The notes below the pieces were generated by a model that worked only from the letters and a program-made list of their open reading frames with translations, did no database searches and was not told the DNA's origin. Shown here piece after piece: positions 10,406 through 59,333 of a stretch of DNA of 64,000 nucleotides. Location: contig LM994627.1 in assembly GCA_000752675.2 (NCBI GenBank), positions 244,429 to 308,428 of the forward strand, given 5' to 3'. This DNA comes from a bacterium OL-1 (GTDB lineage Bacteria > Actinomycetota > Coriobacteriia > Coriobacteriales > Atopobiaceae). The translations under genes and the position numbers were made by a program. Every line of letters starts with the position of its first letter. Positions within the stretch are counted from its first letter, which is position 1.

Positions 10406-10444
10406 AGATATTGGCGCATCTGGCGCATATGCCCAATTGCGTGG

Positions 10445-10706: not shown

Positions 10707-10728
10707 CCCCATGCCTGCAACATGGCCT

Positions 10729-10766: not shown

Positions 10767-10806
10767 ATCTTGCGCGCGAGCGCCTCACAGCGACCTTGGA
10801 GGATAG

Positions 10807-11796: not shown

Positions 11797-11872
11797 CGGG
11801 TACCATAAGCTCGTGTGCGCGGTGCCACGCGGCCCGCGTGAACCGGCAACGTCAATCCGCTAGGAGGAACCC

Positions 11873-44651: not shown

Positions 44652-44810
44652 GTCTACGCTTGCGGGTCTATTCACGCCATTGGCAAGTAGCAAATGTAGC
44701 AAATCATTTTGACTACAGACATCTTCTCTCCGCCTCATTACCTTTTCAGCAAATCGGATATACACGGCGATTTAGATATGTACAGTTTTTGGCATCACGG
44801 AGGAGGAGCG

Positions 44811-45368
44811 ATGAAGATGAACGGCATTCTCACGAGGCGAGACTTTCTGGGAGCTTCAGTCCTTGCATTTCAAGGGGTGCTGTTGATGCCCGACGCTGCT
44901 CATGCTGATCAGGCGAATGCTAGTGTACTAGAGCTTGACGGAAGCATTGAAGCAAGGGAAATGTGGGCAGAGGCCGTTAAAAGGGCCGACCAAGAGAACT
45001 CGCCCATCATATCGTCTGAAGATGACCTCTGCAGTATCCAAGTAGACCCATTGAATGGTGTTTACTCGAACGCAAGAACCGTATCCGTGTCAAAACGTAG
45101 TCAAATAGGTCTTATAAATGATGTGATTATCATATCTGCTGATTATGGGGTAACAAGTACCAATAGAATCTCCCCATTCAATTGGGCAAGATTATATTGT
45201 TCAGCTTCGAGTGTGAAGCACTCAAACTACCATAGAACAGTTCTCGATGGTGGTCGTACCAACGCAATTTGCTTCCATGCAGAGATTGCTGCAGCCGGTG
45301 GATGGCCTACGTATGTCGGGGACTTCTATGCTGAGTTTTATTATACGTTCACTGGTAGTTTCATGTAG
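44811..45368 (+). CDS. Tat-exported protein of unknown function
   Basis: A 185-residue protein I do not recognise. The N-terminus has a twin-arginine signal (ILTRRDFLGAS, residues 6-16) and a probable cleavage site after AHA near residue 32, so it is exported folded. The mature part of about 153 residues has three cysteines (in DLCSIQ, LYCSAS, AICFHA), many Ser, Asn and Tyr, and a C-terminus rich in aromatics (YVGDFYAEFYYTFTGSFM), suggesting a beta-rich fold. A strong GGAGGAGG precedes ATG 44811. Codons such as AGA, ATA and TTA are frequent, unlike the host genes. It follows the membrane regulator and may be its target. Confidence 0.7.
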   Translation: MKMNGILTRRDFLGASVLAFQGVLLMPDAAHADQANASVLELDGSIEAREMWAEAVKRADQENSPIISSEDDLCSIQVDPLNGVYSNARTVSVSKRSQIGLINDVIIISADYGVTSTNRISPFNWARLYCSASSVKHSNYHRTVLDGGRTNAICFHAEIAAAGGWPTYVGDFYAEFYYTFTGSFM

Positions 45369-45386
45369 AGCTTGGGGGTGCCTTCG

Positions 45387-45509
45387 ATGGTTCAGGGGCT
45401 AGGCGCTTGGGAGATAGTTGGCATTTTCCTTGCAATGGTTCTTGTGGTTGCACTGATCATCTTCGGAATTGTGCTTCTCGTCAGAAAGGCATCTGGTAAG
45501 CATAGCTAA
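45387..45509 (+). CDS. Small single-span membrane protein (40 residues)
   Basis: A 40-residue open frame starting at ATG 45387 behind GGGGGTG. It encodes a short polar N-terminus (MVQGLGAWE), one hydrophobic helix (IVGIFLAMVLVVALIIFGIVLLV) and a basic tail (RKASGKHS), an N-out/C-in type small membrane protein. It begins 19 bp after the Tat-exported protein and is followed by a terminator, so it closes the island operon. GTG 45378 is an alternative in-frame start. Function is unknown. Confidence 0.6.
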   Translation: MVQGLGAWEIVGIFLAMVLVVALIIFGIVLLVRKASGKHS

Positions 45510-45557
45510 ACGCCGGGGCATTCTAATACTTCTATGTCAGAGAACCCAGCGGGATAC

Positions 45558-45595
45558 AAAGGAGGCAGGGGTAGTTTCCTTTTGCCTCCCTTTTT
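45558..45595 (+). terminator. Terminator of the island operon
   Basis: GGAGGCA (45561-45567) pairs with TGCCTCC (45583-45589) and is followed by CTTTTT. It merges directly into copy 2 of the double-palindrome repeat. Confidence 0.65.
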
Positions 45596-45670
45596 CTGTC
45601 CCGGTTCGTCACGCATTCGGCAGCAATTGTGTGATGACCTGCGCGGACCACACATTCGGCAACGATTGTT
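45586..45670 (+). repeat. Double-palindrome repeat, copy 2
   Basis: Second copy of the 85-bp element at 43628-43712, same orientation, about eight mismatches. The first of its two palindromes is decayed (CACGCATTCGGCAGCAATTGTGTG). The gap 45510-45875 has no gene beyond this repeat and the terminator. Confidence 0.85.
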
Positions 45671-45875
45671 CGACCGCCGAGAGCCTAGCGGGACCTCTCT
45701 TGCACCCACTGTCTCCCACTTGTGTAGATGTTGATGACGCAACAGCTTGGCGTCTTCGAAACGGTTTTGAATCGTAAGATGTTGACAGAGCAACAAACTG
45801 ACGGACTTGGGCCGCTATCTCGGCTCTCCAACTACTCAAGCGGAGCAACGGACCTTTGCGAGTGGTAGGAGAGGC

Positions 45876-46217
45876 ATGAACAACCGTTTTGAGAGCTTTG
45901 TTGATGTGGTCTACGCTCTCAACAAGGAAATACAGCGCATAAAGTCTGAGAAGATGGGCTCTCTTGGGCTGCGGGGGATTGACACCATGGTGCTGTATTA
46001 CCTCTTCAAGCATGCCATCGACCTCTCGGAGGCAGACCTCGCCCGTCTCGTGCGCCAGGATTGAGCCGCTGTTACATACACCGTGGCAAAGCTGGAGCGC
46101 TCTGGTCTTGTGGAGCGCCCTTCCGGAGATAGTCACAGCGCCCGCTATCGCGCGCGCAAGACGGTCAAGAAGGTCGTCGTGGTGCCCGGGCGCCTGGTGA
46201 ACATCGTCGCCATCTAG
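45876..46217 (+). pseudogene. Broken MarR-family regulator fused to the leuS tail repeat
   Basis: ATG 45876, behind AGGAGAGG, starts a MarR-like N-terminus (NNRFESFVDVVYALNKEIQRIKSEKMG...DLSEADLARLVRQD). A TGA at 46062-46064 stops it after 62 residues. The same frame continues with AAVTYTVAKLERSGLVERP and a wing ending SARYRA, so the TGA probably replaced CGA in the recognition helix. After the wing the frame runs straight into the 62-bp leuS repeat and ends at its TAG. The normal C-terminal dimerisation helices are gone. It therefore carries both a nonsense mutation and a truncation, and is probably inactive. Confidence 0.8.
46156..46217 (+). repeat. Right copy of the 62-bp direct repeat (leuS 3' end)
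   Basis: Identical to the last 62 bp of leuS, including the TAG. It marks the right junction (attR-like) of the island. No integrase gene is present between the copies. Confidence 0.9.
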
Positions 46218-46313: not shown

Positions 46314-46961
46314 ATGCGCATGCGCGTTGACCTGCACATCATGCCGCTTGTGGGGGCTCCCGCAGACTGGGCCTCTCACCTGGGCCTCGTTTGCCCGCGC
46401 TACCAGGAGAAGGCGTCGACGAAGGCGTCCGAGGCAACGCGGCTGGGGGAGTTTGCGGCGGGGCTTCTTTTGGCAAGCGTGCTCGGCGTGCGCCGAGACG
46501 AGCAGCTCGCCATTGGCCCCGAGGGCAAGCCGGAGCTGGCAGTCGGTCCCTCCCGCATTGGGCTTTCGCACGACGACGGCATGGCGGTGCTTGCCGTCGC
46601 CCCCGGGGCCATTGGCGTAGACGTGGAGGAGATGCCCGCCCAGTACGGCAGGCTCGAGCGAGACGCCCTCAGGGGGGTGCTCTCGGATAAGCAGGTCTGT
46701 CGCGTGGAGGCGTCGCCGGACGTCCCGCTCGCCTTCGCCCTTGCGTGGACGCGCGTCGAGGCAACGCTCAAGGCAGACGGTCGCGGCTTTGCCTTCGACG
46801 TGCGCGGAGGCAGGCTCCCCGAGGGCTGGGAGACGGCTCACGTCCTGGTAGACGGCCACGTGGTCACCTGCGCCGCGCGAGAGGAGCCCGCCATCTGCGT
46901 CCAGCGCCTCGGCATGCGCGAGGCCATGGCCCTTCTCGGCGCCGAGAAGGACGAGCGATAG
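46314..46961 (+). CDS. Sfp-type 4'-phosphopantetheinyl transferase
   Basis: A 215-residue enzyme that transfers phosphopantetheine from CoA to carrier proteins. The two family motifs are visible: IGVDVEEM near residues 99-106 and WTRVEATLKADGRG near 144-157. The N-terminal GPEGKPEL and IGLSHDDGM segments match the substrate-loading region. It lies 158 bp upstream of a carrier protein gene, and another carrier protein is encoded at 55.2 kb, so these are the likely substrates rather than the housekeeping AcpP. It sits directly right of the leuS-tail island. Confidence 0.85.
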   Translation: MRMRVDLHIMPLVGAPADWASHLGLVCPRYQEKASTKASEATRLGEFAAGLLLASVLGVRRDEQLAIGPEGKPELAVGPSRIGLSHDDGMAVLAVAPGAIGVDVEEMPAQYGRLERDALRGVLSDKQVCRVEASPDVPLAFALAWTRVEATLKADGRGFAFDVRGGRLPEGWETAHVLVDGHVVTCAAREEPAICVQRLGMREAMALLGAEKDER

Positions 46962-47119
46962 CGGCAGGCCCAGCACCTCTCAGCGTTCCTTTGCACTCCT
47001 GCACAATGCGGCCCTGAAGCCATGCCCCCAATTTGAATCCCCTTACATTGTCCCTGAGTCCGCGCGATCGCAAACTGGACCGTGTCAGAAGTAGTTCTAT
47101 CGCCGCGAAAGGGGCAGAC

Positions 47120-47368
47120 ATGGACCAGGATCGTCAGGAAGTTTGGGACGCGCTCACCACCCGTGCAAGCCAGCTCTTTGGGAAGGACCCCTCTGAGTTC
47201 ACGGAGGATACCAAGTTCGCCGAGCTCGGGATCAAGTCCGTGCAGGTCTCTCAGATCACGACCTACCTCGAGGACGAGCTGGACATCGAGGTCCCGTACA
47301 TGAAGTTCCGCCGCTGCGAGACCTTTGGCGAGGCCACGGACTTTGTCTGCGACCTTCTCGACCAGTAG
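47120..47368 (+). CDS. Dedicated acyl carrier protein
   Basis: An 82-residue carrier protein. The phosphopantetheine serine lies in FAELGIKSVQVSQI (about residue 40). It differs strongly from AcpP at 11.9 kb and has a basic patch (KFRRCETF) in helix III, which suggests a different partner enzyme. GAAAGGGG precedes ATG 47120. The CocE-type hydrolase starts 10 bp after its end, so they are co-translated. Such stand-alone carrier proteins normally serve a special acyl or aminoacyl pathway rather than fatty acid synthesis. Confidence 0.85.
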   Translation: MDQDRQEVWDALTTRASQLFGKDPSEFTEDTKFAELGIKSVQVSQITTYLEDELDIEVPYMKFRRCETFGEATDFVCDLLDQ

Positions 47369-47378
47369 GGGGCGTGCG

Positions 47379-49298
47379 ATGTTTCTAGAGCCTAGGATTC
47401 CCGAGGACTGGGTTCCCGTCACCGACAAGAAGCTGCACGACCTCATCAAGATGACGGGCGAGTGCGCAAGCTTCAACGAGGACGAGTGCCCCATCTACTG
47501 GGACCCCGACACCGAGGGCTACATCTTTCTGCACCGCGAGGCCTTTGGCGAGGACGAGGTCATGGCGGCCTACCGCGTGGCGCGTCAGCCCAACGACAAC
47601 CAGGCAGAGGTCGACCTCTCCGCGAGCGACGACCCCATGGCCCGCATGGGCCAGGGCTTCTGCCCGCCGTTCAACCCACACACCTACCAGGCGGCTGACG
47701 GCGTGGTGTGCATGCAGGACCAGGAAGTGGTCATGCGAGACGGCACCAAGATTTACTGCGACATCTACAAGCCCGAGGCCGAGGGCCGCTATCCCACGAT
47801 CGTCTCGTGGTCATGGTTTGGCAAGCGCCCGGGCGACGGCATGAGCGAGTGGCAGATCATGGGCGTGCCCCCCGCGACGGTCTCCAAGTGCGCCAAGTTC
47901 GAGTCGCCCGATCCGCTCTTCTGGTGCTACAAGGGCTACGTCGTGGCCAACGTGGACGTGCGTGGCGCGGGCCACTCCGAGGGCTCGGTTCACATGTTCA
48001 CGCACCAGGATCGCGAGGACGGCTACGACTTCGTGGAGTGGGTCGCGGCCCAGCCCTGGTCCAACGGCCGAGTGGGCATGTCGGGCAACTCCGGCGTGGC
48101 CATGCACCAGTGGGGCATCGCTTCTACCTGCCCTCCCCACTTGGCCTGCATTGCGCCCTGGGAGTGCACGACCGACCTCTACCGCGAGAGCTTCTTCGAG
48201 GGTGGCGTTCCGGCCCTCTCGTTCAACAAGTTCATCGCAGCGCAGGTGACGGGCCCCAACGGCGTTGACGACCAGGTCGCCATGGCCAAGATGTACCCTG
48301 ACATGAACGCCTACTGGAACGACAAGCGCGCGGACGTGCGCAAGGTCAAGATTCCCGTCTACCAGACTGCCGGCTGGTCGCACTTCCACCTGCCGGGCTC
48401 GTTCAACGCCTGGAGGCGCTGCCGCAGCCACCTCAAGTGGATGCGTGCGCACAGGGACTTCGAGTGGCCTGACACCTACAACCCCGAGAACCTCGAGGAC
48501 CTGCTGCGCTACTACGACCGCTACCTCAAGGGCATCCACAACGGCTGGGAGATGACGCCGCGCGTCCGCCTGGACATCATGGACGGCTACGACGTGGACT
48601 ACCAGGAGCAGCGCCCCGAGAAGGCCTGGCCTATCAAGCGCACCCAGTACAAGAAGCTCTACCTCGACGCGTCCGCGCCCAAGGACTGCGCGCCGCTCGA
48701 CCACAAGTCCGCGTGCTTCTCGCTCTCGATTGAGCCGGTGTCCACGCAGGCAAAGGCCAGCTACAACCCGGCGGACGAAGAGGTCGACTTTGACCTCACG
48801 CTTCCCGAGGACGTCGAGATCACGGGCTACATGAACCTGCATCTCTTTGTCTCCTGCGACGGCTTCGATGACATGGACCTCTTCGTGAACATCCAGAAGG
48901 CCGACGCCGAGGGCAACTGGGTGCCCTGGCTCACGCTCGACGAGCCGCACCCGGGTGCGTGGGGCAAGTGTCGCGTGTCTCGCGCGACGGTTGACGCCGC
49001 CCTCACCAAGGCGCACACCCCGGTCTACACGATGACCGACACCAACAAGCTCGCGGAGGGCGATGTCCGCGCCGTCGACATCGCAATCGTGCCCACCGCC
49101 CGCGTCTACCACAAGGGCGAGCGCTTCCGCGTGCAGATCTCGGGCCGCTACATCCGCGACGGGTGGTTTGAGCCGCTCTCGTGGGACACCGACAACCACG
49201 GCACCCACAACATCCACACCGGTGGCGAGTGGGAGTCCTGGATCGAGGTGCCCGTGGTGCCGCCGAGGTACCAGGCGGGCGAGTACGTGCACCGCTAG
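47379..49298 (+). CDS. CocE/NonD family hydrolase
   Basis: A 639-residue alpha/beta hydrolase of the CocE/X-Pro dipeptidyl-peptidase (S15) family, which hydrolyses esters or peptides. An N-terminal region of about 120 residues, rich in acidic residues, precedes the catalytic core. The nucleophile is Ser238 in GMSGNSGVAM, in place of the common GxSYxG. A helical cap region follows (AAQVTGPNGVDDQVAMAKM), and a C-terminal jelly-roll domain from about residue 410 contains the LFVSCDGFDDMDLFVNIQK block. It forms an operon with the carrier protein. The N-terminal extension and the carrier partner suggest it may act on a carrier-bound or aromatic ester. A strong terminator follows. Confidence 0.82.
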   Translation: MFLEPRIPEDWVPVTDKKLHDLIKMTGECASFNEDECPIYWDPDTEGYIFLHREAFGEDEVMAAYRVARQPNDNQAEVDLSASDDPMARMGQGFCPPFNPHTYQAADGVVCMQDQEVVMRDGTKIYCDIYKPEAEGRYPTIVSWSWFGKRPGDGMSEWQIMGVPPATVSKCAKFESPDPLFWCYKGYVVANVDVRGAGHSEGSVHMFTHQDREDGYDFVEWVAAQPWSNGRVGMSGNSGVAMHQWGIASTCPPHLACIAPWECTTDLYRESFFEGGVPALSFNKFIAAQVTGPNGVDDQVAMAKMYPDMNAYWNDKRADVRKVKIPVYQTAGWSHFHLPGSFNAWRRCRSHLKWMRAHRDFEWPDTYNPENLEDLLRYYDRYLKGIHNGWEMTPRVRLDIMDGYDVDYQEQRPEKAWPIKRTQYKKLYLDASAPKDCAPLDHKSACFSLSIEPVSTQAKASYNPADEEVDFDLTLPEDVEITGYMNLHLFVSCDGFDDMDLFVNIQKADAEGNWVPWLTLDEPHPGAWGKCRVSRATVDAALTKAHTPVYTMTDTNKLAEGDVRAVDIAIVPTARVYHKGERFRVQISGRYIRDGWFEPLSWDTDNHGTHNIHTGGEWESWIEVPVVPPRYQAGEYVHR

Positions 49299-49329
49299 GC
49301 AGGCAGCCCGCTAAGACGGCATTGCCGTA

Positions 49330-49364
49330 GGGCCCTCTGGCACAAGGCCAGAGGGCCCTTCTCT
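49330..49364 (+). terminator. Terminator of the PPTase-ACP-hydrolase block
   Basis: A perfect 12-bp stem (49330-49341 with 49347-49358) with a 5-nt loop is followed by TTCTCT. The remaining gap to 49563 holds no gene. Confidence 0.85.
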
Positions 49365-49563
49365 GTTACGGTGCGGCAGCAGCGGGTGCGCGCCGCACGC
49401 CACCGTGCGTTTGCACAACCCTCATCCAAACCCCGGATGCAGTTTCGTCTCGACAGACGAATACCGCGAGAACTCCGCCGCCTACCATCAGGGAGGCATG
49501 CGCGAGACCGGCTAGGCCGGTGCCACGCGCCAAGCATCCCACATCCCAGGAGAGGGGTTCTTC

Positions 49564-50541
49564 ATGGCAAAGTTCAAGGTTATGGCCGTTTGCGCAGGTA
49601 GAAAGGGCGGCAACGGCGAGGCTCTCGCCAAGGAGGCGCTGTGCGCCGTCGAGGAGGCGGGTGGCGAGGTCGAGCTGCTCAACCTCTTCGACTACAACAT
49701 CCTGCCGTGCACCGGCTGCGAGGGCTGCACCATGCAGATGGGCAAGATGGCCGCCGGTCTTCAGGATGAGTACCACGGCTGCGTCCTCAAGGACAAGGAC
49801 GATACTGACGCGATCATCACCGAGATGCACACGTGCCAGGGCATCATCTTCGTGGTCCCCACCTACGACCTCACGCCAAGCTCGCTCTACACCCGCCTGG
49901 CCCAGCGCTTCCTTGCCTACGAGCTCTCGTTCCTGCTCGCCATCGGTGCCGTCAAGGAGAACCCGCACACTGTGGCGGGGCTCATCTCGGTGGGCGGCTC
50001 CATGCACGACTGGCAGTCGCTGGCGCTCGAGAGCCTGCAGGCGACCATGTTCACCCAGTCGCTCCAGGTGGTTGACCGCTACATGGCCACACGCGACGGC
50101 CGCCCCGGCAACACCTTCGTCTACGCTGACCAGCTGCCCCGCGCTCGCAAGATGGGCGAGAACATCGTGAAGGCCATCAACACCCCCGTCGAGGAGCGCG
50201 GCTGGCTCGGCGACCCCAACGATGGCGTGTGCCCCAACTGCCACTCCAGCCTCGTCTATCCTGGCGACAAGCACTGGGACGGCATCGAGTTCCCTTGGGA
50301 GTGCGCCGTGTGCGGTGCCGGTGGAACGCTGGGCACCAACCCCGAGACCGGTCGTCCCATGCTCGTGATCGATTCCGAGAACGGCCTCATCCGCGACCGC
50401 AACAACGACAAGGCCCGCGCCGAGCACCTGAACGAGATCAACAAGACCCGCGATCAGTTCTTTGCTCAGCAGGACCAGATCAAGGACCAGATGAAGAAGT
50501 ACCGTGACATGAAGTTCCCGACCCTGGAGATCAAGAGGTAG
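49564..50541 (+). CDS. Iron-sulfur-flavoprotein-like reductase with C-terminal zinc ribbon
   Basis: A 325-residue flavodoxin-fold protein. The N-terminal half is NADPH-dependent FMN reductase-like, and Cys49, Cys52 and Cys55 (LPCTGCEGC) match the compact cluster motif of iron-sulfur flavoproteins. A second part from about residue 218 has two Cys pairs, 223/226 (CPNC) and 247/250 (CAVC), which look like a zinc ribbon or rubredoxin-type site. The last 60 residues are helical and charged. It would move electrons for a reductive step. It is monocistronic, between two terminators, and just upstream of the PucR gene. Confidence 0.75.
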   Translation: MAKFKVMAVCAGRKGGNGEALAKEALCAVEEAGGEVELLNLFDYNILPCTGCEGCTMQMGKMAAGLQDEYHGCVLKDKDDTDAIITEMHTCQGIIFVVPTYDLTPSSLYTRLAQRFLAYELSFLLAIGAVKENPHTVAGLISVGGSMHDWQSLALESLQATMFTQSLQVVDRYMATRDGRPGNTFVYADQLPRARKMGENIVKAINTPVEERGWLGDPNDGVCPNCHSSLVYPGDKHWDGIEFPWECAVCGAGGTLGTNPETGRPMLVIDSENGLIRDRNNDKARAEHLNEINKTRDQFFAQQDQIKDQMKKYRDMKFPTLEIKR

Positions 50542-50565
50542 CCCCTCCATCAGCGTTCAGCCATT

Positions 50566-50612
50566 CCGCCCGACCGCGAGTAATTCCCACGGTCGGGCGG
50601 TATTGTTTTTTT
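50566..50612 (+). terminator. Terminator after the flavoprotein gene
   Basis: A perfect 11-bp stem (50566-50576 with 50590-50600) is followed by TATTG and seven T residues. It also lies at the end of the convergent PucR gene. Confidence 0.85.
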
Positions 50613-50665
50613 GCCCGCAAGACGGACGACCTGGATGTGGGCGCTCTGCCGAGCGGCCACGCTCC

Positions 50666-52279
50666 CTAGTCCTCCTCGGCCCTGAAGTCCTTCCTCGAGA
50701 TGTTCAGACGAGACTTGAAGAGGTCGAGGTAGAACAGGACGCGGTACGAGAGCTGCAGCATGAACTGGTCCTCGCCGGACGAGAGGTCGCATCCCAGGAT
50801 CTCGCGGATGCGACCCAGCCGGTAGAGCAGCGTGTTCTTGTGCAGGCTCAGCATCCTTGCCGAGCGCTGGGTGTTGCAGGCGTTCTGCAGGTAGATGAAG
50901 AGGGTGTCCATGAGCTCGGTGCCGTGCTCGCGGTCGTAGCGGGCCAGGCGCATGAGCGAGGGGTGCACAAAGTTCAGCAGGTTGTACTGCTTGTTGGTGA
51001 GGTCGAGCATCTGGACGTAGGCATAGTCGCAGTAGTGGTAGACCTGCCCGTCCTCGAGGAAGACCGAGACGAGGCGCCCGGCCGAGATGGCGGCGCGAGC
51101 CTGCTCGTAGTGGCTCTGGATGTGCGTGAGGTCCTCGAAGGCGTTGCTCACGCCCACCGAGAGGTCGTTCACGTCGGCGACCTTGCGGAGGAGCTCCTCG
51201 GTGTAGTCCCCGAGGCCGGTGCCCTTCTCGCGGGAGAAGAGCACCACGAGGGCCCGCTCGTACGTGGCGTAGATGCTGTTCGTGAGGCAGCCCGTGAGCT
51301 GCATGGCAATGGAGTCCAGGTCGTGCGGGGCGACGTCTGCGTGGTTGGGGTCGAAGACCGCCAGGTAGAGCTCGGGCAGGGGCCTGAAGTCGAGCACGCT
51401 CAAGCGACGCGCGGTCACGGCGTGGCTGGGCTGCTCGTCGTTGAGGAGGCTCGTCAGGAAGTAGGAGTCCATCTGCCCGCGGCTTGCTACGTAGAGGTTG
51501 GTCTTTTGCATCTCCTGGGCAACGAAGCGCCCCAGGCGTGCCATGCACTCCACGTCCACCTCGCCGAAGGGATGGTCGCGCTCGATCATCATGGTGTGCG
51601 CGATGGTCACCCCGTGCACCACCGAGGGCGTGACCATGGTGTTTGCCCCGAGGACCTCGTTGTACACCACGATGGGGGTCGAGGACTGGGCGCATCGCTC
51701 GCTGATTCGCTCGTGCTCGATGAAGGCGACGCCGTCCTCGAGGATCGACTCGTAGTGAAACTCCTGATCAAGCACCCTGTCAATGGGGTTTTGTGGGTTG
51801 AGCCTGCCCTCCACGTGGCGGGCTACGTAGTGGTAGGCGCTGTCCACGACTACGATGGGGTTGCCCAGCGCGCGCGACGCCTCCTCGATGAGGTACTGGA
51901 GGCCGTTGTTGGTAAAGTGAGCGGTGAGCATTCGGCGAACGATGTCCGTCACCTGGATGTCCTCGAGAAGGAACCCCTGGAGGTCGTTGTAGCAGGAGAA
52001 GGGGTTGAACTCCAGGCGAAGGAGGATCACGTTGCACGAGGCGCTCTCGAGGAGGCCCTTGGGAACCTCCTGGCACCCAAAGAGGACAAGGTTGAAGATC
52101 TCCTCGACCGGCGCCTCGGGGAGGTGGACGTCATCCGAGAAGTAGAGGACGTTCGAGTGTATGCACCTCGTCGTGGCCGTGAGGAAGCAGATGTTGTCGA
52201 TGTTGACCTCTGGGTCGCGGAGCTTCCTCAGGGCAACGGACCCTTCGGGCAGGCGCTTGAGCAGCTCTTTGAGTTCCAT
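50666..52279 (-). CDS. PucR/CdaR-type transcriptional regulator
   Basis: A 537-residue regulator. The N-terminal half is a PucR-like sensing region; a GAF/GGDEF-like middle follows (RLSVLDFRPLPELYLAVFD), and a C-terminal PucR HTH (LYLQNACNTQRSARMLSLHKNTLLYRLGRI) lies near residue 460. The start is set at 52279, behind AGAGGGACC on the minus strand; the longer frame upstream overlaps the divergent TetR gene and is not conserved in style. Family members control catabolic operons in response to small molecules. It is divergent from the TetR gene and convergent with the flavoprotein gene, so it probably controls neighbours on either side. Confidence 0.82.
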   Translation of the reverse strand: MELKELLKRLPEGSVALRKLRDPEVNIDNICFLTATTRCIHSNVLYFSDDVHLPEAPVEEIFNLVLFGCQEVPKGLLESASCNVILLRLEFNPFSCYNDLQGFLLEDIQVTDIVRRMLTAHFTNNGLQYLIEEASRALGNPIVVVDSAYHYVARHVEGRLNPQNPIDRVLDQEFHYESILEDGVAFIEHERISERCAQSSTPIVVYNEVLGANTMVTPSVVHGVTIAHTMMIERDHPFGEVDVECMARLGRFVAQEMQKTNLYVASRGQMDSYFLTSLLNDEQPSHAVTARRLSVLDFRPLPELYLAVFDPNHADVAPHDLDSIAMQLTGCLTNSIYATYERALVVLFSREKGTGLGDYTEELLRKVADVNDLSVGVSNAFEDLTHIQSHYEQARAAISAGRLVSVFLEDGQVYHYCDYAYVQMLDLTNKQYNLLNFVHPSLMRLARYDREHGTELMDTLFIYLQNACNTQRSARMLSLHKNTLLYRLGRIREILGCDLSSGEDQFMLQLSYRVLFYLDLFKSRLNISRKDFRAEED

Positions 52280-52429
52280 GGGTTGGTCCCTCTCGTCGTA
52301 TGTGCAAACACACAAAATAATACGTGAATGTCGCACCGGCCGTTGGTCTCGCGCGCACGGGCTGCGTGTGCCCCATGGGCTATAGTTCAGCGTGTTGTCA
52401 CTGGAGGCGGACGTGCGGGAGGTGCTCGC

Positions 52430-53050
52430 ATGAAGCGGGGCCCTGGAAGCGCGGCAAAGCGAGGCGTCGAGGAGAGGGTCGAGGAGGCGGTCTTCGGCCT
52501 CATGGAGACGACCGACATCCCTGACATCAAGGTGAGCGACGTCGTCTGCTTCGCTGGCGTGTCCCGCTCGACCTTCTACCGGCACTACGACAGCGTCGAG
52601 GACGTGGTGAAGCAGTTCGAGGCGGGGCTTCTCGACACCATGCGGACGATCAACAACACCGCGCTGGGCGTGCGGTTCGACAAGGCAGAGCTCAGACCCA
52701 CGCATTCGATGGTCGCTCGCATGGAGGTGCTCCGCAAGAACCGCGACAAGATCGTGGCCCTCAACAGCGACCACGGCGACCCCGTCTTCCAGCACCGTGC
52801 GACCATGCTCATGCACGAGTACTTTCGCATCCGCCTGCAGGGCGTGGGCGGCTCGGAGCTCCATCGCGACCTGTACCTCTCGTTCGTGATCGCCGGCCAC
52901 AACAACCTCATCCAGTACTGGCTCGAGAAGCGCCCGGAGATTCCGCCCACCGAGGTCGCCGCCATACTCAACCGCATGTACTACTCGCCGCTGTTCATAG
53001 ACGAGAAGACCGCGCTCGAGCTTCCCGAAGACCCGTTCGCCCGCCTGTAG
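52430..53050 (+). CDS. TetR-family transcriptional regulator
   Basis: A 206-residue TetR-type repressor. The N-terminal HTH (about residues 18-62) contains IKVSDVVCFAGVSRSTFYRHYDSVEDVV. The rest is a helical ligand-binding domain of low conservation (LYLSFVIAGHNNLIQYWLEK). GGGAGGTG precedes ATG 52430; earlier in-frame codons are GC-rich leader. It is divergent from the PucR gene and lies 294 bp before the thiolase operon. The TGTCCC/GGGACA repeats in that gap are a candidate operator. The ligand could be an acyl-CoA or aromatic substrate. Confidence 0.82.
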   Translation: MKRGPGSAAKRGVEERVEEAVFGLMETTDIPDIKVSDVVCFAGVSRSTFYRHYDSVEDVVKQFEAGLLDTMRTINNTALGVRFDKAELRPTHSMVARMEVLRKNRDKIVALNSDHGDPVFQHRATMLMHEYFRIRLQGVGGSELHRDLYLSFVIAGHNNLIQYWLEKRPEIPPTEVAAILNRMYYSPLFIDEKTALELPEDPFARL

Positions 53051-53226
53051 GGACCACTTGCCGGGGCCCGGTCGCGCCAGGGCGCCAGCTTTCGCTTGCG
53101 GGATAGACACCCTGGTCTACCAGCGGATTCATGCGCGCGCCCAAAGACCCTCCCCGTGGCGTCGCGTTCTTTGGACGTCACAAACAACCGGCGTCTACCT
53201 GCGAGAAGAAACACATGCCCATTGAG

Positions 53227-53264
53227 TGTCCCATATTGCGGGACACATTGTGTATATATGTCCC
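53227..53264 (+). promoter_or_regulatory. Candidate operator of the thiolase operon
   Basis: TGTCCC at 53227, its complement GGGACA at 53240-53245 and TGTCCC at 53259-53264 surround a TGTGTATATATG promoter-like stretch, about 80 bp before the thiolase start. The alternating half-sites suggest binding by a dimer, perhaps the TetR encoded next door. The rest of 53051-53344 holds no gene. Confidence 0.5.
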
Positions 53265-53344
53265 GCTCTGCACGTGAGGCACCCCATATCCTGTGCTCGT
53301 ACGCAGCGAGAGTTCTGCAGCACACGAGCAAAGGAGTGATTGTC

Positions 53345-54631
53345 TTGGTCAAGCTTGGCAAGCAGGCACGCAGCGTGTCCATCGTGGGTGTTGGCTGCAC
53401 TCCCTTCAAGAACTTCGAGGACCATCCCCAGACCAAGGGCATGAGCGAGGGCGACGCCTTTGGCTACGCCGCGCTTGAGGCCATCCAGGACGCGGGCCTC
53501 GAGCCGCGCGACATCCAGTACTTCTACCACGGTGCCGCGAACCCCTTCATGATTGGCGACTCCCTCACGCCCAACATGCAGGTGGCGGACTGGTTCGGCG
53601 TGCGCGGCATTGGCTCGGTGCACCACTCCGAGGCCTGCTGCACCGGTTACGTTGCCCTGCAGGAGGCAGTGCAGGCGGTTGCCTCCGGCACCTATGACGT
53701 TGTGCTTTCTGGTGCCGTGGACCTGGCGGCGTCGCTTCCCGTGGTAGACGCCCCCGGCTGCTTCCGCCGCGACTTCCCGCTCTCCGAGATGCTGCCCTCC
53801 ATCCCCAAGGTCTACGACCGCGCCTATGGCCGCCCGTTTGACTCTGCGTTTGGCATCTCGTTCGACAACTGGATCAACAAGTACCGCTGGGAGTACGACC
53901 TCACGGCAGAGCAGATCGACGATGCCCTGAACGGCGTCTCCAAGTCCCTGAGGCGCGACGCCGTTCTCAACCCCCTGGCCTTCTCGACGAAGACCTTCGA
54001 GGAGCTTGCCAAGGAGAACGACCTTCCGGATGCCGATACGTACCTCAAGGGCTTTGGCAACCCCAAGGTTACGCAGTACCTGCGCGTGACCGGCTTCGAG
54101 ATTAAGTGCGACGGCGCCGCCGCCCTGGTGGTCATGCCCACCGAGATGGCCGTCGCCCGCGGCCTCGACCACAAGGTGATTGACGTCCTGGGCACGGGTG
54201 CTGCCGCCTTCGAGGGCGCGACCCCGGACAACGAGTACAACGGCACCAAGGTTGGCACCCAGCAGGTCTACGAGCTCACCGGCGTGAGCCCCGACGAGCT
54301 TGACCTGCTCTTCGTGAATGACTTCTTCCTGGCAGGAGACATTGTGGCCGCCGAGGAGGTTGGCTACATCCCGCGCGGCGAGGCCTGGCAGTACGCCATC
54401 GACGGCCGCATGGGCTTTGACGGTGACAGGCCCATCAACACGCACGGCGGCCGCTGCAACTTTGGTCATGCGCACGGAGCCTCGGGCGTGGCGGACGTGG
54501 TCGAGGCCGTCAAGCAGATGCGCGGCGAGGCCGGTGCCACGCAGATGCCCAAGGCTCCACAGACCACGTTCCTGCGCGGCTTTGGTGGCGGCCAGAACAT
54601 CCGCTGCCAGATCCTGCGCACCCACGACTAG
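53345..54631 (+). CDS. Thiolase-superfamily acyltransferase (PhlC-like)
   Basis: A 428-residue protein of the SCP-x/PhlC branch of the thiolase superfamily. The N-terminal VSIVGVGCTPF matches the family. Cys98 in HHSEACCTGYVAL is the expected nucleophile, and His375 in NFGHAHGASGVAD the expected base. The typical CxG second cysteine near the end is missing (RGFGGGQNIRCQIL), as in acyltransferase-type members. Start TTG 53345 has AAGGAG 8 bp upstream. It is followed by its DUF35 partner and a carrier protein. Known pairs of this type form or break carbon-carbon bonds next to a ketone, e.g. in acetylphloroglucinol synthesis; here the direction and substrate are unknown. Confidence 0.82.
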   Translation: MVKLGKQARSVSIVGVGCTPFKNFEDHPQTKGMSEGDAFGYAALEAIQDAGLEPRDIQYFYHGAANPFMIGDSLTPNMQVADWFGVRGIGSVHHSEACCTGYVALQEAVQAVASGTYDVVLSGAVDLAASLPVVDAPGCFRRDFPLSEMLPSIPKVYDRAYGRPFDSAFGISFDNWINKYRWEYDLTAEQIDDALNGVSKSLRRDAVLNPLAFSTKTFEELAKENDLPDADTYLKGFGNPKVTQYLRVTGFEIKCDGAAALVVMPTEMAVARGLDHKVIDVLGTGAAAFEGATPDNEYNGTKVGTQQVYELTGVSPDELDLLFVNDFFLAGDIVAAEEVGYIPRGEAWQYAIDGRMGFDGDRPINTHGGRCNFGHAHGASGVADVVEAVKQMRGEAGATQMPKAPQTTFLRGFGGGQNIRCQILRTHD

Positions 54632-54670
54632 CGCCCGGCGCGCATCCAAGCAACCAAGAGGAGGTACACG

Positions 54671-55138
54671 ATGCTTCTTGAAGACATGGAGCCAATCGTT
54701 AAGAAGTTCTACGACGGCGTTGCCGAGGGCAAGCTCCTTGGCCGCAAGTGCACGGAGTGCGGTGCCATCGAGTTTCCGCCGCACCTGGGCTGCAACGCCT
54801 GCGGCTACCACCAGACCGAGTGGGTGGAGCTCTCTGGCCATGGCACGCTCGAGTCCTTTGTGGTGCCCGGCATCCAGAACGACAAACCCTACCTCAAGGA
54901 GGTCGCGCCCTACGGCTACGGCAAGGTGCGTCTCGACGAGGGCACGGAGTACTCGTTCGTGATCTTCTGCGGCAAGAAGAAGGTCGTGAAGGGCCTGCAG
55001 GAGCGCCTCTACAAGAACCACGAGACCATTGGCGTCCACTTCAAGCCCATCAAGCGCGTGGTGCCCGAGAAGGAGGGCTCTGACGTGATGGTCGAGTGGT
55101 GGGAGCCCTGCTTTGAGCTCGACGAGGTCGCGGAGTAG
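54671..55138 (+). CDS. DUF35 OB-fold/zinc-ribbon partner protein
   Basis: A 155-residue DUF35 protein. The N-terminal helix leads into a rubredoxin-like zinc ribbon with two Cys pairs (CTECG and CNACG, about residues 27-45), followed by an OB-fold with GTLESFVVPG and VIFCGKKKVV. DUF35 proteins form tight complexes with thiolase-type enzymes and channel the acyl group. It starts 39 bp after the thiolase, behind GAGGAGG, as expected for such a complex. The first 20 residues (LEDMEPIVKKFYDGVAEGKL) fit the family. Confidence 0.88.
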   Translation: MLLEDMEPIVKKFYDGVAEGKLLGRKCTECGAIEFPPHLGCNACGYHQTEWVELSGHGTLESFVVPGIQNDKPYLKEVAPYGYGKVRLDEGTEYSFVIFCGKKKVVKGLQERLYKNHETIGVHFKPIKRVVPEKEGSDVMVEWWEPCFELDEVAE

Positions 55139-55196
55139 CGTTGCGGCCGTGGACTGTTGAACATCAAACATTGAATCAAGACGGAAGGAACCAACC

Positions 55197-55436
55197 ATGG
55201 ACAAGAACGAGCTCTTCTCGACCCTCGCAGGCCTTGCCAAGGAGGCCTACAAGACCGACGTCGACATTACCCCCGATACCACCTTCGACGAGCTGGGCAA
55301 GGGTTCCATGAAGATGATCGCCCTCACCTCGATGATCGAGAACGAGCTTGACGCCGAGGTCACCGTCACCGAGATCATGAACATGAAGACCTTCGGCGAG
55401 CTCGTTGACCGCGTTGCCGAGGAGGTCGAGGAGTAG
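55197..55436 (+). CDS. Acyl carrier protein of the thiolase operon
   Basis: A 79-residue carrier protein. The attachment serine is in FDELGKGSMKMIALTSMI (about residue 38), where the usual DSL is replaced by GSM. The remainder has the acidic helical pattern of carrier proteins (ELDAEVTVTEIMNMKTFGELVDRVAEEVEE). GGAAGGAACC precedes the ATG. It lies 58 bp after the DUF35 gene and 89 bp before the phosphotransacylase gene, with a hairpin between. Its closest likeness in the window is the carrier protein at 47.1 kb rather than AcpP. Confidence 0.85.
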   Translation: MDKNELFSTLAGLAKEAYKTDVDITPDTTFDELGKGSMKMIALTSMIENELDAEVTVTEIMNMKTFGELVDRVAEEVEE

Positions 55437-55475
55437 GCCTTCTCGCCTACTCGCGTGTACGGCCAAGCAAACCCC

Positions 55476-55510
55476 GGGGCGGCTCCTTCTGGGGCCGCCC
55501 CCTTCTTTTA
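55476..55510 (+). terminator. Terminator/attenuator between the carrier protein and phosphotransacylase genes
   Basis: An 11-bp stem (55476-55486 with 55491-55501, one G-T pair) with loop TTCT is followed by CCTTCTTTTA. It could lower expression of the downstream two genes or separate two transcripts. Confidence 0.65.
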
Positions 55511-55525
55511 CCTTTGGAGAGATAC

Positions 55526-56533
55526 ATGAACCTTATGGATGACATGCGCAAACGCGCCAAGGCAAACGTCCAGCGCGTCGCCTTCTTCGAGGGCGAGAAC
55601 CCTACCATGATCAAGGCCGTGGCCGAGCTTACCGACCAAGGCCTGGCCTCGTGCGTGGTTGTCGGCAATGTTGAGGCGATCGAGAAGAACGCCGCCGAGC
55701 AGGGCGTGAGCCTTGACGGCGTGGAGCTTGTGGACCTTGCCGACGAGGAGGCAAATGAGGTCCTGGCCCAGCGCTTTGAGGTCCTTCCCAGCTGTCGCTG
55801 GAAGGCCAAGGGCGTGCGCCGCCGCGTGGCGCGCCCCATGGAGCGCGCCCTCATGATGCAGGCGCTCGGCGACGTGGATATCACCTTTGGCGGCATCGAC
55901 TGCCCCACGGGCGACGTCATCCTGGGCGGTCAGGAGATCATCGGCCTGGCAGACGGCATCGACACCATCTCGTCCATGGGCATCTTCGACATCCCCGGCT
56001 ACGAGGGCTCCGCGGGGCAGCTCCTGGGCTTTGGCGACTCCGCTGTCTGCCAGAACCCAACGCCCGAGCAGGAGGCTTCCATCGCCATCTCCGCCTGCGA
56101 CACGTGGAGCGCTCTTACCGGCAGCGAGGCACGCTGCGCGCTGCTCTCGTTCTCGACTGACGGCTCCGGCGCGGGCGAGATGGTCCAGAAGGTGCGCGAC
56201 GCGCGCGACATTGCCAACGAGCGTCGCCCGGACCTCAAGATCGACGGCGAGTTCCAGCTTGACGCCGCGCTGCGCCCGGAGGTGGCGGCTCACAAGGTGC
56301 ACCGCGAGAGCGCCGTTGCCGGCAAGGCCAACGTCATCATCTGGCCCGACCTCAACGTGGGCAACGTGGGTGTGAAGCTCGTGCAGATGTTTGGCCACGC
56401 CAACGCGTACGGTCCCATGCTCCAGGGCTTCAAGAAGATCGTCTGCGACTGCTCGAGAAGCGCCCCCGTGTCCGAGATCGTGGGCAACGTCGTGATGTCC
56501 TGCGTGCGCGCGCAGTGCCTCAAGGGGGAGTAG
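55526..56533 (+). CDS. Phosphate acyltransferase (Pta/Ptb family)
   Basis: A 335-residue enzyme of the PTA/PTB family, which converts acyl-CoA and phosphate to acyl phosphate and CoA. The blocks FFEGENPTMIKAV, FGGIDCPTGDVILGGQ, ALLSFSTDGSGAGEMVQ, DLKIDGEFQLDAAL and SRSAPVSEIVGN match the family. Length fits both Pta and Ptb. The butyrate kinase gene next to it favours a short- or branched-chain acyl substrate. The family is structurally related to PlsX, which uses acyl-ACP, so acyl-ACP use is possible here. ATG 55526 follows GGAGAG; ATG 55535 is an alternative. Confidence 0.85.
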   Translation: MNLMDDMRKRAKANVQRVAFFEGENPTMIKAVAELTDQGLASCVVVGNVEAIEKNAAEQGVSLDGVELVDLADEEANEVLAQRFEVLPSCRWKAKGVRRRVARPMERALMMQALGDVDITFGGIDCPTGDVILGGQEIIGLADGIDTISSMGIFDIPGYEGSAGQLLGFGDSAVCQNPTPEQEASIAISACDTWSALTGSEARCALLSFSTDGSGAGEMVQKVRDARDIANERRPDLKIDGEFQLDAALRPEVAAHKVHRESAVAGKANVIIWPDLNVGNVGVKLVQMFGHANAYGPMLQGFKKIVCDCSRSAPVSEIVGNVVMSCVRAQCLKGE

Positions 56534-56535
56534 CC

Positions 56536-57648
56536 ATGACCGAGAAGAACTACCGCATCCTGGTCATCAACCCCGGCTCCACCTCCACCAAGGTGGGTCT
56601 CTTCGAGGGCGAGACATGCGTCTTCTCGAAGAACGTCTCCCATGACGCCCAGCGCCTGGCCCAGATTGGCGATGTCTCCTCCCAGCTGCCCTACCGCCGC
56701 GACATGATCATGGGGATCTTGGACGAGAACGGCGTTGACCTCTCGACCATCGACGCCTTTGTGGGCCGCGGAGGCGGGCTCCTCTCGCTGGAAGGCGGCG
56801 TGTACTCGGTGGACGAGACGCTGCTCAACGACGCCCGCCGCGGGGCAAACGGCGTGCAGCACCCGGCACAGCTGGGAAGCCAGCTTGCCCACGAGCTTGC
56901 GGCCAGCTGCGGTAAGCCCGCCTTTGTGGTGAACCCGCCGGACACCGACGAGCTTTGCGACGACGCGCGCATGACGGGCATCCGGGGCGTCTACCGCAAC
57001 GTCCACCTGCATGCGCTCAACCTCAAGGAGACTGCCATCCGCCACGCCAAGACGATGGGGCGCCGCTATGAGGACTGCGACTTCATCGTGTGCCACATCG
57101 GCGGGGGGATCTCCATCTCGGCACACCAGCACGGCCGCATGATCGACGGCTACGACATCGTGGGCGGCGAGGGCCCCATGACCCCCACGCGCGCAGGTGC
57201 GGTACCCGTGGTTGCGGTGCTCGACTACCTCAAGAATCACGACTCGGCCGAGACGCGCAGACTCTGCCAGCGCAGCGGTGGCTTTGCGGACCTTCTCGGC
57301 ACGTCTGACGCGCTTGAGGTGTGCCGCCGCGCCGAGGAGGGAGACGAGGCGGCGTCGCGTGCTTGGAGTGCCATGGAGTACCAGCTCGTGAAGTACATCG
57401 GATCCATGGCCACGGTGCTTCACGGCAACGTGGACGGCATTCTCCTTGGCGGCGGCATGGTGCACAACCAGGGCCTCGTTGCCTACATCCGCGACGCCTG
57501 CGGCTGGATTGCCCCCGTCACGGCATACCCCGGCGAGTTCGAGTTGGAGGCCATGGCAGCGGGTGCGATACGTGCGCTCTCCGGCGAGGAGGAGGTCAAG
57601 CGCTACTCGGGCAAGCCCGTCTTTACCGGCTTTGCCTGCTTTGAGTAG
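56536..57648 (+). CDS. buk: Butyrate kinase
   Basis: A 370-residue acetate/butyrate kinase-family enzyme that makes ATP and a short-chain acid from an acyl phosphate. The N-terminal INPGSTSTKVGLFEGE, the middle CHIGGGISISAHQHGRMID and DIVGGEGPMTPTRAGAVP, and GILLGGGMVHNQ near the end are butyrate-kinase type. It starts 2 bp after the phosphotransacylase stop, so the two work in series: acyl-CoA (or acyl-ACP) to acyl phosphate to acid plus ATP. Butyrate is not certain; branched acids are accepted by many members. Confidence 0.92.
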   Translation: MTEKNYRILVINPGSTSTKVGLFEGETCVFSKNVSHDAQRLAQIGDVSSQLPYRRDMIMGILDENGVDLSTIDAFVGRGGGLLSLEGGVYSVDETLLNDARRGANGVQHPAQLGSQLAHELAASCGKPAFVVNPPDTDELCDDARMTGIRGVYRNVHLHALNLKETAIRHAKTMGRRYEDCDFIVCHIGGGISISAHQHGRMIDGYDIVGGEGPMTPTRAGAVPVVAVLDYLKNHDSAETRRLCQRSGGFADLLGTSDALEVCRRAEEGDEAASRAWSAMEYQLVKYIGSMATVLHGNVDGILLGGGMVHNQGLVAYIRDACGWIAPVTAYPGEFELEAMAAGAIRALSGEEEVKRYSGKPVFTGFACFE

Positions 57649-57690: not shown

Positions 57691-58584
57691 TCACCCCACC
57701 TGCAGGTACTTGTCGAGAAAAACATCAAGTGCGTCGTTTCTGCGAGACGGAAGCCATGCCGCGGCGGTGCACATTTCCTGCTCACGGCCTTCGATTGGGA
57801 TAGCGTTCACCTTGCCGTTTGCGTTGATGAACGACGTGAAGTAGCCGGGAAGGAGGGCATATCCCATCCCCGAAGCTACGGCCAGTACCGTTGTCGCGAT
57901 GTCCTGGGAGACGTAGGCGATCTTGGGGGCAAGGCCCACGCCCTCGAGCGTGCTGCTAATCCTGGAGTTTTCGCCGTACTTCTCGCTGCCCCGGTCGATG
58001 TCTACGAGCTCATAGCCCTTGAGCTCGGAGAACCCGATTGTTTGCCTTCCGGAGAGCGGATGTCCTGCCGGCACTACGGCAAGGAGCGGCCAGTGCCTTA
58101 GGACCTGGTACTCGATGCCCTCCATCTGGGACGGGTCATAGAGAAGGTTAAAGGCGACGTCGATTGTCTCGGCCTTGAGGGCATCGTAGAGCTCGGAAAC
58201 ATTCTCGCGCATGAACGAGACCGTCACGTACGGGTTGTCCGTGAGAAAGGAGAGGACCATATCCGAAAGATTCGTGTGCTCATAGCCTTTTATGTAGCCG
58301 ATGGCAAGCGTGCCATCTATGCCCTTGCTTCTCCGCCTAGCACGGATGAGCGACTCCTGCTCGTAGCGCAGGATGGTCTTGGCATCGCCTAGCAGTGACC
58401 TTCCGGCCGGTGTGAGCTCAACGTGGTGGCTGTCCCGCTCGAATAGACGGGTGCCCGCCTCCTTCTCTAGGAGCTTGATTTGCTGGCTAAGCGCAGCCTG
58501 CGAGACAAAGAAGCGCTTGGCTGCACGCGTAAATGAAAGATCCTCTGCAACGGCTACAAAGTACTCAAGCTGCCTTGTCTGCAT
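57691..58584 (-). CDS. LysR-family transcriptional regulator
   Basis: A 297-residue LysR-type regulator. The N-terminal winged helix is clear (LEYFVAVAEDLSFTRAAKRFFVSQAALSQQIKLLEKEAG), and the effector-binding region has two Rossmann-like lobes (LAIGYIKGYEHT..., VSQDIATTVLAVASGMGYALLPGYF). It is divergent from the DUF1097-like/flavin reductase genes, with a 124-bp gap carrying a palindromic site. LysR-reductase pairs of this kind are frequent in gut Coriobacteriia, where they respond to the reductase substrate; here the effector is unknown. Confidence 0.9.
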   Translation of the reverse strand: MQTRQLEYFVAVAEDLSFTRAAKRFFVSQAALSQQIKLLEKEAGTRLFERDSHHVELTPAGRSLLGDAKTILRYEQESLIRARRRSKGIDGTLAIGYIKGYEHTNLSDMVLSFLTDNPYVTVSFMRENVSELYDALKAETIDVAFNLLYDPSQMEGIEYQVLRHWPLLAVVPAGHPLSGRQTIGFSELKGYELVDIDRGSEKYGENSRISSTLEGVGLAPKIAYVSQDIATTVLAVASGMGYALLPGYFTSFINANGKVNAIPIEGREQEMCTAAAWLPSRRNDALDVFLDKYLQVG

Positions 58585-58603
58585 GAGCGTATGCTCCTCT
58601 TTG

Positions 58604-58622
58604 CAATAAGAATTACTTATTG
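58604..58622. promoter_or_regulatory. Palindromic LysR-type site in the divergent promoter region
   Basis: CAATAAG-AATTA-CTTATTG is a perfect 7-5-7 palindrome 20 bp upstream of the LysR start. It fits the dyad a LysR protein uses for autoregulation and for control of the divergent operon. The gap is distinctly AT-rich compared with the genes. Confidence 0.6.
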
Positions 58623-58708
58623 AACGTCAATATCTACGATACATCAACCCAGATGATTGCTGCTTACGATAAGAAACGTAGGCATAACTGACGTATTAGG
58701 GAGCTGCG

Positions 58709-59284: not shown

Positions 59285-59333
59285 CTCCACCGCAGCTTCA
59301 TTCCCAGCTAAGGAAAGGAATAGGTGAGAAACC

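Follow-up and report, generated by a model that had tools for sequence, protein, structure and literature searches.

A carrier-linked thiolase-DUF35, phosphotransacylase and butyrate kinase cluster in an Atopobiaceae genome as a candidate energy-conserving acyl-cleavage module

We analyzed a window of 64,000 nucleotides (C10:244429-308428, contig LM994627.1) from the genome of bacterium OL-1 (2.46 Mb, 99% complete), a member of the Atopobiaceae whose nearest named genomes are Tractidigestivibacter/Olsenella (98-99% thiolase identity). The window contains a cluster of eleven genes, in which a thiolase-fold acyltransferase and its DUF35 partner stand next to a carrier protein, a phosphotransacylase (Pta) and a kinase of the butyrate kinase family (Buk). 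This cluster is more than a chance assembly, because its gene order and adjacencies are found again in different genera and phyla. Its thiolase gene is co-inherited with a gene for flavone reductase (FLR). We propose, with our confidence evenly divided, that it is a module for catabolic acyl cleavage with energy conservation, tied to a flavonoid pathway, in which it would replace phloretin hydrolase (Phy). That Pta and Buk conserve energy in a carrier-dependent manner in general appears probable to us. The genes, their order and conservation, the co-inheritance with FLR and the active-site residues are documented below at the sequence level.

We infer the substrate, the direction of the reaction, the acylation of the carrier, its use by Pta and the yield of ATP as follows. 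FLR would convert a flavone to a flavanone, and ring opening and reduction would then give an aryl ketone, namely a dihydrochalcone of the kind of phloretin. Cys97 of the thiolase-DUF35 pair would attack this ketone, giving phloroglucinol and an arylpropionyl enzyme thioester in the reverse of a PhlC-type C-acylation. Carrier 2 would take over the arylpropionyl group on its phosphopantetheine arm; from there the divergent Pta would transfer it to inorganic phosphate, and Buk would turn the acyl phosphate into free acid and ATP. The whole route would stand in for Phy, which uses water to reach the same products and makes no ATP. If so, gut bacteria would gain ATP from dietary flavonoids, for which the described route ends in the hydrolytic, ATP-free Phy step, and acyl carriers could replace coenzyme A (CoA) in energy metabolism. 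In the open-licence PMC literature searched by topic, no such system is described by title or abstract start.

Gene calls come from translation and profile scans (Pfam, NCBIfam) of the window. The eleven genes listed by a first-pass annotation of this stretch are all open, have family matches and lie in the order and at the positions given there; a twelfth, a possible but non-conserved member of the pathway, follows downstream.

46314-46961, plus strand: Sfp-type 4'-phosphopantetheinyl transferase (PPTase); PF01648, 28.5 bits (cut-off 25)
47120-47368, plus strand: carrier protein 1, partner of CocE; PF00550, 34.5 bits
47379-49298, plus strand: CocE/NonD family serine alpha/beta-hydrolase; TIGR00976, 223.5 bits (cut-off 66.3)
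49564-50541, plus strand: FLR-related flavin reductase ("flavoprotein"), a distant paralogue of flavone reductase; PF03358, 45.2 bits
50666-52279, minus strand: divergent PucR-family regulator, its position recurring in relatives; HTH_30, 68 bits
52430-53050, plus strand: TetR-family regulator; TetR_C_8, 37.1 bits
53348-54631, plus strand: thiolase-fold acyltransferase, proposed to cleave C-C bonds (Cys97, His61, His374); Thiolase_C_1, 91.9 bits
54671-55138, plus strand: DUF35 partner, zinc ribbon and OB fold; PF12172, 30.2 bits, and PF01796, 30.0 bits
55197-55436, plus strand: carrier protein 2, serine in the LGKxSMK motif; PF00550, 43.1 bits
55526-56533, plus strand: Pta-type phosphotransacylase without Arg28, Arg87 and Arg133 (M. 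thermophila numbering); PTA_PTB PF01515, 268.2 bits
56536-57648, plus strand: butyrate kinase family kinase (Buk); TIGR02707, 366.8 bits (cut-off 289.1)
59334-61466, plus strand: OYE-type flavin/FeS reductase, the possible additional member; Oxidored_FMN, Pyr_redox_2

We surveyed 140 genomes of the family and found a thiolase match (E <= 1e-3) in 51, 45 of them at 71-100% identity. The usual core in the fetched family loci consists of the flavoprotein, a divergent PucR, TetR and the run thiolase-DUF35-carrier 2-Pta-Buk; TetR, Pta or Buk is absent or relocated in some of these loci, and carrier 1-CocE lies nearby in a subset. Beyond these, the named loci are the best 80 of 219 qualifying stretches, 41 of them close (L076-L116, 72-99% identity) and 39 distant (L117-L155, 51-57%), and several of their missing partners fall on short contigs. 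In 78 of these best 80 loci (39/41 close, 39/39 distant) DUF35 is no more than 400 bases away from the thiolase, and in 62 (36/41 close, 26/39 distant) a carrier is found within 1.5 kb; the five close loci without a nearby carrier are four contig ends and L100, where the thiolase is split. Pta is found within 2.5 kb of the thiolase in 24/41 close and 14/39 distant loci, and Buk within 9 kb in 27/41 and 7/39, respectively. The distant loci belong mostly to Lachnospiraceae, with others from Erysipelotrichaceae (Dielma), Clostridium caldaquaticum, Collinsella massiliensis and one Anaerolineales genome. Thiolase, DUF35 and carrier thus form a recurring block, to which Pta and Buk are often joined; outside the family it is seen in Erysipelotrichaceae, Clostridium, Lachnospiraceae and one Anaerolineales genome. 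The co-occurrence of these five genes, which the earlier annotation had suggested searching for, is strong and wide, so that a lack of conserved linkage among relatives, named there as a ground for refutation, was not observed.

Several distant loci have contexts of their own. The Lachnospiraceae loci L130, L137, L140 and L145-L155 combine carrier, thiolase and DUF35, often with Pta and in many cases with a large OYE reductase, and several of them contain an FGGY kinase, a class II aldolase or dehydrogenases. Seven loci with a thiolase-DUF35 pair and no carrier (L120, L121, L125, L126, L127, L136, L141) have a TIM-barrel gene family in common. These seven include loci of Catenibacillus scindens and Faecalicatena orotica, and in L121:4137-13370 the thiolase is surrounded by TIM-barrel, glyoxalase-type, aldo/keto reductase and GFO/IDH genes, as occur in several of these loci.

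The thiolase had been called PhlC-like, which holds at the level of the fold and of two aligned residues, but PhlC is not its nearest solved relative. Cys97 aligns to PhlC Cys88 and His61 to PhlC His56, and both residues are invariant in 32/32 thiolases down to 50% identity. In PpATase crystals soaked with monoacetylphloroglucinol, the density is consistent with Cys88 carrying an acetyl group, next to phloroglucinol that has been released, and PhlC His56 hydrogen-bonds a phloroglucinol hydroxyl (PMC6392133). By alignment, two archaeal thiolases have no His at position 61 (Ile in 6esq; Val or Asn in Pyrococcus 7yvy). The HDCF motif of CoA thiolases of the SCP2/archaeal type reads NDF (Asn324-Asp325-Phe326) in 32/32 of these sequences, and there is no Cys at the C-terminal position, where CoA thiolases carry a further Cys motif; neither known acid/base Cys is therefore present. 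The predicted thiolase structure (pLDDT 79.6, pTM 0.86) gives best rows of Z 42.0-43.7 against DUF35-partnered thiolases, PhlC included, and we consequently set the fold comparison aside as evidence for PhlC function, as it does not discriminate.

The genome has three PF00550 matches, two in the cluster and a third at ~11.9 kb, beside plsX and the rnc-smc pair; the cluster carriers are therefore probably not the fatty-acid carrier. The Sfp-type PPTase likely activates both of them, and its gene also lies beside the cluster in the same-genus loci L054-L057 and in L067. Other PPTases adjoin the module elsewhere (L112, L113, L166, L167; in Collinsella-type loci before TetR), and an AcpS-type PPTase follows Buk in L138:13083-13451 (Pfam), with family members in L131 and L144.

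Carrier 1 is located upstream of CocE in the fetched family loci of the cluster that hold both, and is also found in this position in L160 and L162; in L174-L179 it comes after CocE and before Pta2/Buk. CocE matches PDB entry 3ib3 (E 5.5e-83) with its putative nucleophile Ser aligned, and it may cleave an ester or a C-C bond. The order CocE-carrier-Pta2-Buk occurs in six of 20 fetched loci (L174-L178 and L179), and the L179 genome (operon 8918-11848) lies outside both the FLR and the thiolase sets. This operon stands alone or linked to FLR (L174-L179), with a serine hydrolase where the thiolase-DUF35 pair would stand. In our genome it is split, with carrier 1-CocE at 47120-49298 and Buk2-Pta2 ~7 kb beyond Buk, just past the end of the window. 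CocE, carrier, Pta and Buk thus constitute a second, parallel module. Two unrelated acyl-cleaving enzymes are each accompanied by carrier, Pta and Buk, which hints that the carrier-Pta-Buk series is a device of its own, the two-module pattern being the strongest pointer to it. Extended to its full form, this notion describes a previously undescribed system in which a dedicated acyl carrier with its own phosphotransacylase and butyrate kinase makes ATP from breaking a bond beside a carbonyl, with interchangeable front ends (Cys thiolase-DUF35, Ser CocE), occurring in Actinomycetota, Bacillota and Chloroflexota and serving gut bacteria to obtain ATP when they cleave flavonoids; we regard this as conceivable, with slightly more doubt than trust.

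The transacylase, annotated before as Pta/Ptb, indeed belongs to the PTA_PTB family, but it is nearer Pta than Ptb: the NCBIfam models score 230 to 248 bits for the former and 63 to 72 bits for the latter, with neither cut-off reached. We rejected a Ptb identity (TIGR02706, 62.9 bits against a cut-off of 410.5) as well as a PlsX-like enzyme, since the protein is a PTA_PTB member and plsX lies elsewhere (10807-11796). With M. thermophila Pta as reference, we compared 74 distinct Ptas from fetched thiolase, CocE and FLR loci to 30 distinct housekeeping sequences, drawn from locus L032 of our own genome and from the 30 matches in the family with the best scores (L194-L223). Arg28, Arg87, Arg133, Arg287, Ser309, Arg310 and Asp316 are kept in 30/30 housekeeping enzymes. 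The fetched-locus Ptas all keep Ser309 and Arg310 (74/74), whereas Arg87 and Arg133 are found in 0/74 each, Arg28 in 1/74 and Arg287 in 6/74, and position 316 is Glu in 72/74. Ser309 and Arg310 are residues of site 1, which is probably the active site; Arg87 and Arg133 are part of a second CoA site, at which mutations mainly affect Km (PMC6461089). A Pta domain has a CoA 3'-phosphate arginine (PMC7902834), which would be the equivalent of Arg87. The loss of Arg87 and Arg133 supports use of a carrier by these sequences; it is no proof of CoA independence, because Ptb-like proteins lack them too.

Two reductases point towards flavonoids. For the flavoprotein at 49564-50541, flavone reductase 7d38 is the single PDB match at E <= 0.001 (E 1.5e-15, 27% identity), and seven of the 18 residues named for FLR as contacts of FMN and apigenin are kept (Val144, Gly146, Ser147, Trp149, His271, Ile275, Thr305). 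A second, closer FLR is encoded at locus L031, ~14 kb from the thiolase. It matches 7d38 over its full length (E 4.3e-108, 55% identity) and keeps 13/18 named residues, including Gly106, Trp149, His271 and Ile275, which are important for FLR (PMC7862272); by its sequence it is a true FLR orthologue. FLR and its homologues are described as an ene-reductase class that had not been identified before (PMC7862272). FLR presence in the Olsenella group is not a new observation, because low-identity FLR hits in Olsenella metagenome-assembled genomes are already on record (PMC8398226). The orthologue's surroundings (L031:3732-17866, G000:C10, just past the window end) comprise Buk2, Pta2, PucR2, an FAD enzyme, NADH/FeS electron-transfer proteins and a transporter; the nearest NCBIfam model of the FAD reductase is vinyl phenol reductase (313 bits, under the cut-off of 600).

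FLR of the L031 type is present in 45 of the 140 family genomes and co-varies with the thiolase: 39 genomes have both, six FLR only, six thiolase only and 89 neither (Fisher p 6.6e-22, not corrected for ancestry). The genera with FLR and those with the thiolase are identical, 15 out of 35. In g34, a genus of 31 genomes, the counts of both, FLR only, thiolase only and neither are 8/2/1/20 (p 4.7e-5), and those in other genera are 5/0/0/3 (g1), 2/0/0/3 (g18), 1/0/0/4 (g21), 1/0/0/2 (g24), 1/0/0/2 (g26), 10/2/2/4 (g35) and 3/0/2/11 (g31), with g32 as the exception (0/2/1/2). The 39 pairs lie on one contig 4-46 kb apart in 25 cases and ~555 kb apart in one, and on separate contigs in 13. CocE tracks FLR as closely (both 43, FLR only 2, CocE only 5, neither 90). 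Among the 39 distant loci, FLR-related genes adjoin the thiolase in three, the Lachnospiraceae loci L134 and L147 and the Anaerolineales locus L118; L147 unites a C-glycosidase beta subunit, two FLR-related genes, Pta, Buk, carrier, thiolase and DUF35. An FLR search over 19 genomes gave some match at E <= 1e-10 in ten, the best outside the order being that of the L147 genome (53%), and two of eight thiolase genomes from other families of the order (G289, G345) have a true FLR (71-72%).

Among the six genomes with FLR but no thiolase, two (G090 and G104) have carrier 1-CocE followed by a PF18089 hydrolase of the phloretin hydrolase family (254-255 bits), which in G104 shares its locus with FLR. 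Completeness is 68, 68, 87 and 90% for the remaining four; a thiolase-type Buk stands at the start of the G129 contig, and the FLR-without-thiolase status of G129 and G124 may reflect assembly gaps. PF18089 is thus found in 2/6 FLR genomes without thiolase as opposed to 2/39 with it. Our own genome has zero matches to this family, nor was BKACE of the known phloroglucinol pathway found in it, and 41/45 FLR-bearing family genomes have no PF18089 match over the cut-off; the proposed module would provide their cleavage step. A simple swap of Phy and thiolase throughout the family was rejected, since there is no anti-correlation, and the replacement claim draws on the FLR-bearing genomes, which are few in number. 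In G120 (same genus, no thiolase) a cyclase-family-like frame, named by eye, follows a phloretin-hydrolase family gene (L158:2676) and could belong to phloroglucinol breakdown.

These findings support in part the interpretation offered by the first-pass annotation, in which an acyl group, perhaps from an aryl ketone or acylphloroglucinol, is loaded onto the carrier and leaves as acyl phosphate for ATP formation. The donor guess gains independent support, because an FLR-related reductase lies in the cluster, the closer FLR is co-inherited with the thiolase, a phloretin-hydrolase-family gene is present in two thiolase-less FLR genomes and PhlC His56 aligns to the invariant His61. The linkage stands as well, while the kinship of the flavoprotein, the second carrier module and the Pta type of the transacylase had been missed.

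A number of observations weigh against cleavage of a flavonoid-derived aryl ketone by a carrier-linked module. PhlC Tyr298 appears to correspond to Asn324 of the thiolase (by the offset of the aligned range), and no PhlA-like gene (ketosynthase III/HMG-CoA synthase-like) occurs among the window proteins scanned around the cluster. The flavoprotein lacks 11/18 named FLR residues, Gly106 and Glu91 among them. Two of the 39 genomes with FLR and thiolase also carry the PF18089 hydrolase family, PF18089 and thiolase are independent over the 140 genomes (p 0.72), and a Pta-Buk2 pair is present in the FLR loci of both hydrolase genomes (G090, G104), with no thiolase to feed it. Six of the eight thiolase genomes from other families of the order are without true FLR, and none is detected at E <= 1e-10 in G162, G168, Collinsella massiliensis and the L138 genome. 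The thiolase-DUF35 pair is found without a carrier in 13/39 distant loci, seven of them in a sugar-like context. On the side of Pta, 4/4 Ptb-like proteins also lack Arg87 and Arg133, so that the missing arginines carry less weight as proof that a carrier is used; the 30 housekeeping controls, as best-scoring matches, were picked for Pta likeness. Lastly, cleavage of an aryl ketone may not provide enough energy for ATP.

Several of these points would be accommodated if the same carrier, Pta and Buk machinery served another donor, a 1,3-diketone or beta-ketoacyl group other than a dihydrochalcone, for example a diketone derived from a ring or a sugar, with FLR merely a frequent neighbour. The FLR-less genomes of other families, the Lachnospiraceae loci that combine FGGY kinase, class II aldolase and dehydrogenases with OYE, carrier, thiolase, DUF35 and Pta, and the carrier-less loci with sugar-type genes are in line with this. 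However, FLR and thiolase co-vary strongly in the window's family, also within most genera (g32 excepted), they are physically linked, and FLR-related genes adjoin the thiolase in L134, L147 and L118; we consider a different donor unlikely, though deserving of attention. Chance neighbourhood of unrelated genes has nothing in its favour beyond variable neighbours such as OYE, LysR and DUF1097, and it is refuted by an order conserved over genera and phyla, leaving it a negligible probability.

The cluster could instead run in the biosynthetic direction, with an exogenous acid being activated by Buk and Pta, by way of an acyl phosphate, to an acyl-carrier; the thiolase-DUF35 pair would then acylate a phenol or extend the acyl group. 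The multi-component acyltransferases PhlACB and MucABC reach nearly the same fold score, and Buk/Ptb priming of fatty acids occurs in other bacteria. Yet reductases and transporters surround the cluster, a degrading hydrolase family is present in two FLR genomes without thiolase, and no chain-extending or PhlA/PhlD-like gene is found among the cluster proteins scanned, so that synthesis seems improbable. Much the same degree of doubt applies to a CoA-dependent path of thiolase, Pta and Buk with the carriers serving something else in the same operon. Ptb-like enzymes, which are taken to use CoA, have neither Arg87 nor Arg133, and butyrate kinases normally act after CoA-dependent steps; but all but five of the close loci have a carrier gene no further than 1.5 kb from the thiolase, four of these misses being contig ends, each Pta-Buk pair has its own carrier, PPTases are nearby in several lineages, and the thiolase has no Cys at either position known for CoA thiolases. 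We thus retain the catabolic, carrier-linked module on the flavonoid pathway as our working proposal.

Between Buk and the next conserved genes, window positions 57691-61466 hold LysR, DUF1097 and the OYE reductase (BaiCD-like, below cut-off). This stretch is present in L054 and not in L055-L057 of the same genus, and OYE also occurs in L063. The OYE gene is thus doubtful as an essential step, as it is missing in three of four same-genus loci fetched with full flanks. On the other side of the cluster, between a LuxR-type gene and the PPTase, positions 44001-46000 form the 2-kb block of lowest G+C (0.50; others 0.56-0.72).

We compared the cluster to known systems. With the Friedel-Crafts acylase PhlACB/PpATase it shares a DUF35-partnered thiolase fold, the catalytic Cys and the His56 equivalent, but it differs by the lack of a PhlA among the genes found, an apparent Asn at Tyr298, its own carrier and Pta/Buk, and the proposed direction of cleavage. 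The benzoylsuccinyl-CoA thiolase BbsAB and archaeal DUF35 thiolase complexes likewise combine thiolase and DUF35 (Z about 43), but they act on CoA thioesters, whereas in our cluster the HDCF His and Cys are replaced and a carrier is added. Pta-AckA and Ptb-Buk provide the pairing of a phosphotransacylase with a kinase, the cluster kinase scoring over its family cut-off, while in the cluster Pta two arginines of the CoA site are missing and a carrier protein goes with the enzyme. PlsX converts acyl-carrier into acyl phosphate, the reaction proposed here for Pta; PlsX is however a separate gene (10807-11796) beside the third carrier, and the cluster enzyme belongs to PTA_PTB. Glycine reductase, citrate lyase and malonate decarboxylase use a protein-bound thioester catabolically, and glycine reductase releases acetyl phosphate; to our knowledge these have other folds and substrates, and none combines thiolase-DUF35 with Pta and butyrate kinase. 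The phloretin hydrolase pathway (FLR, Fcr and Phy; Flavonifractor, Eubacterium ramulus, Clostridium butyricum) resembles the route proposed here in FLR and in the proposed cleavage of a dihydrochalcone, and in C. butyricum the genes to which the roles of FLR, Fcr and Phy are assigned by proposal follow one another directly (PMC11868195). Our genome differs by having no Phy family match, and thiolase, DUF35, carrier, Pta and Buk in its place would save energy.

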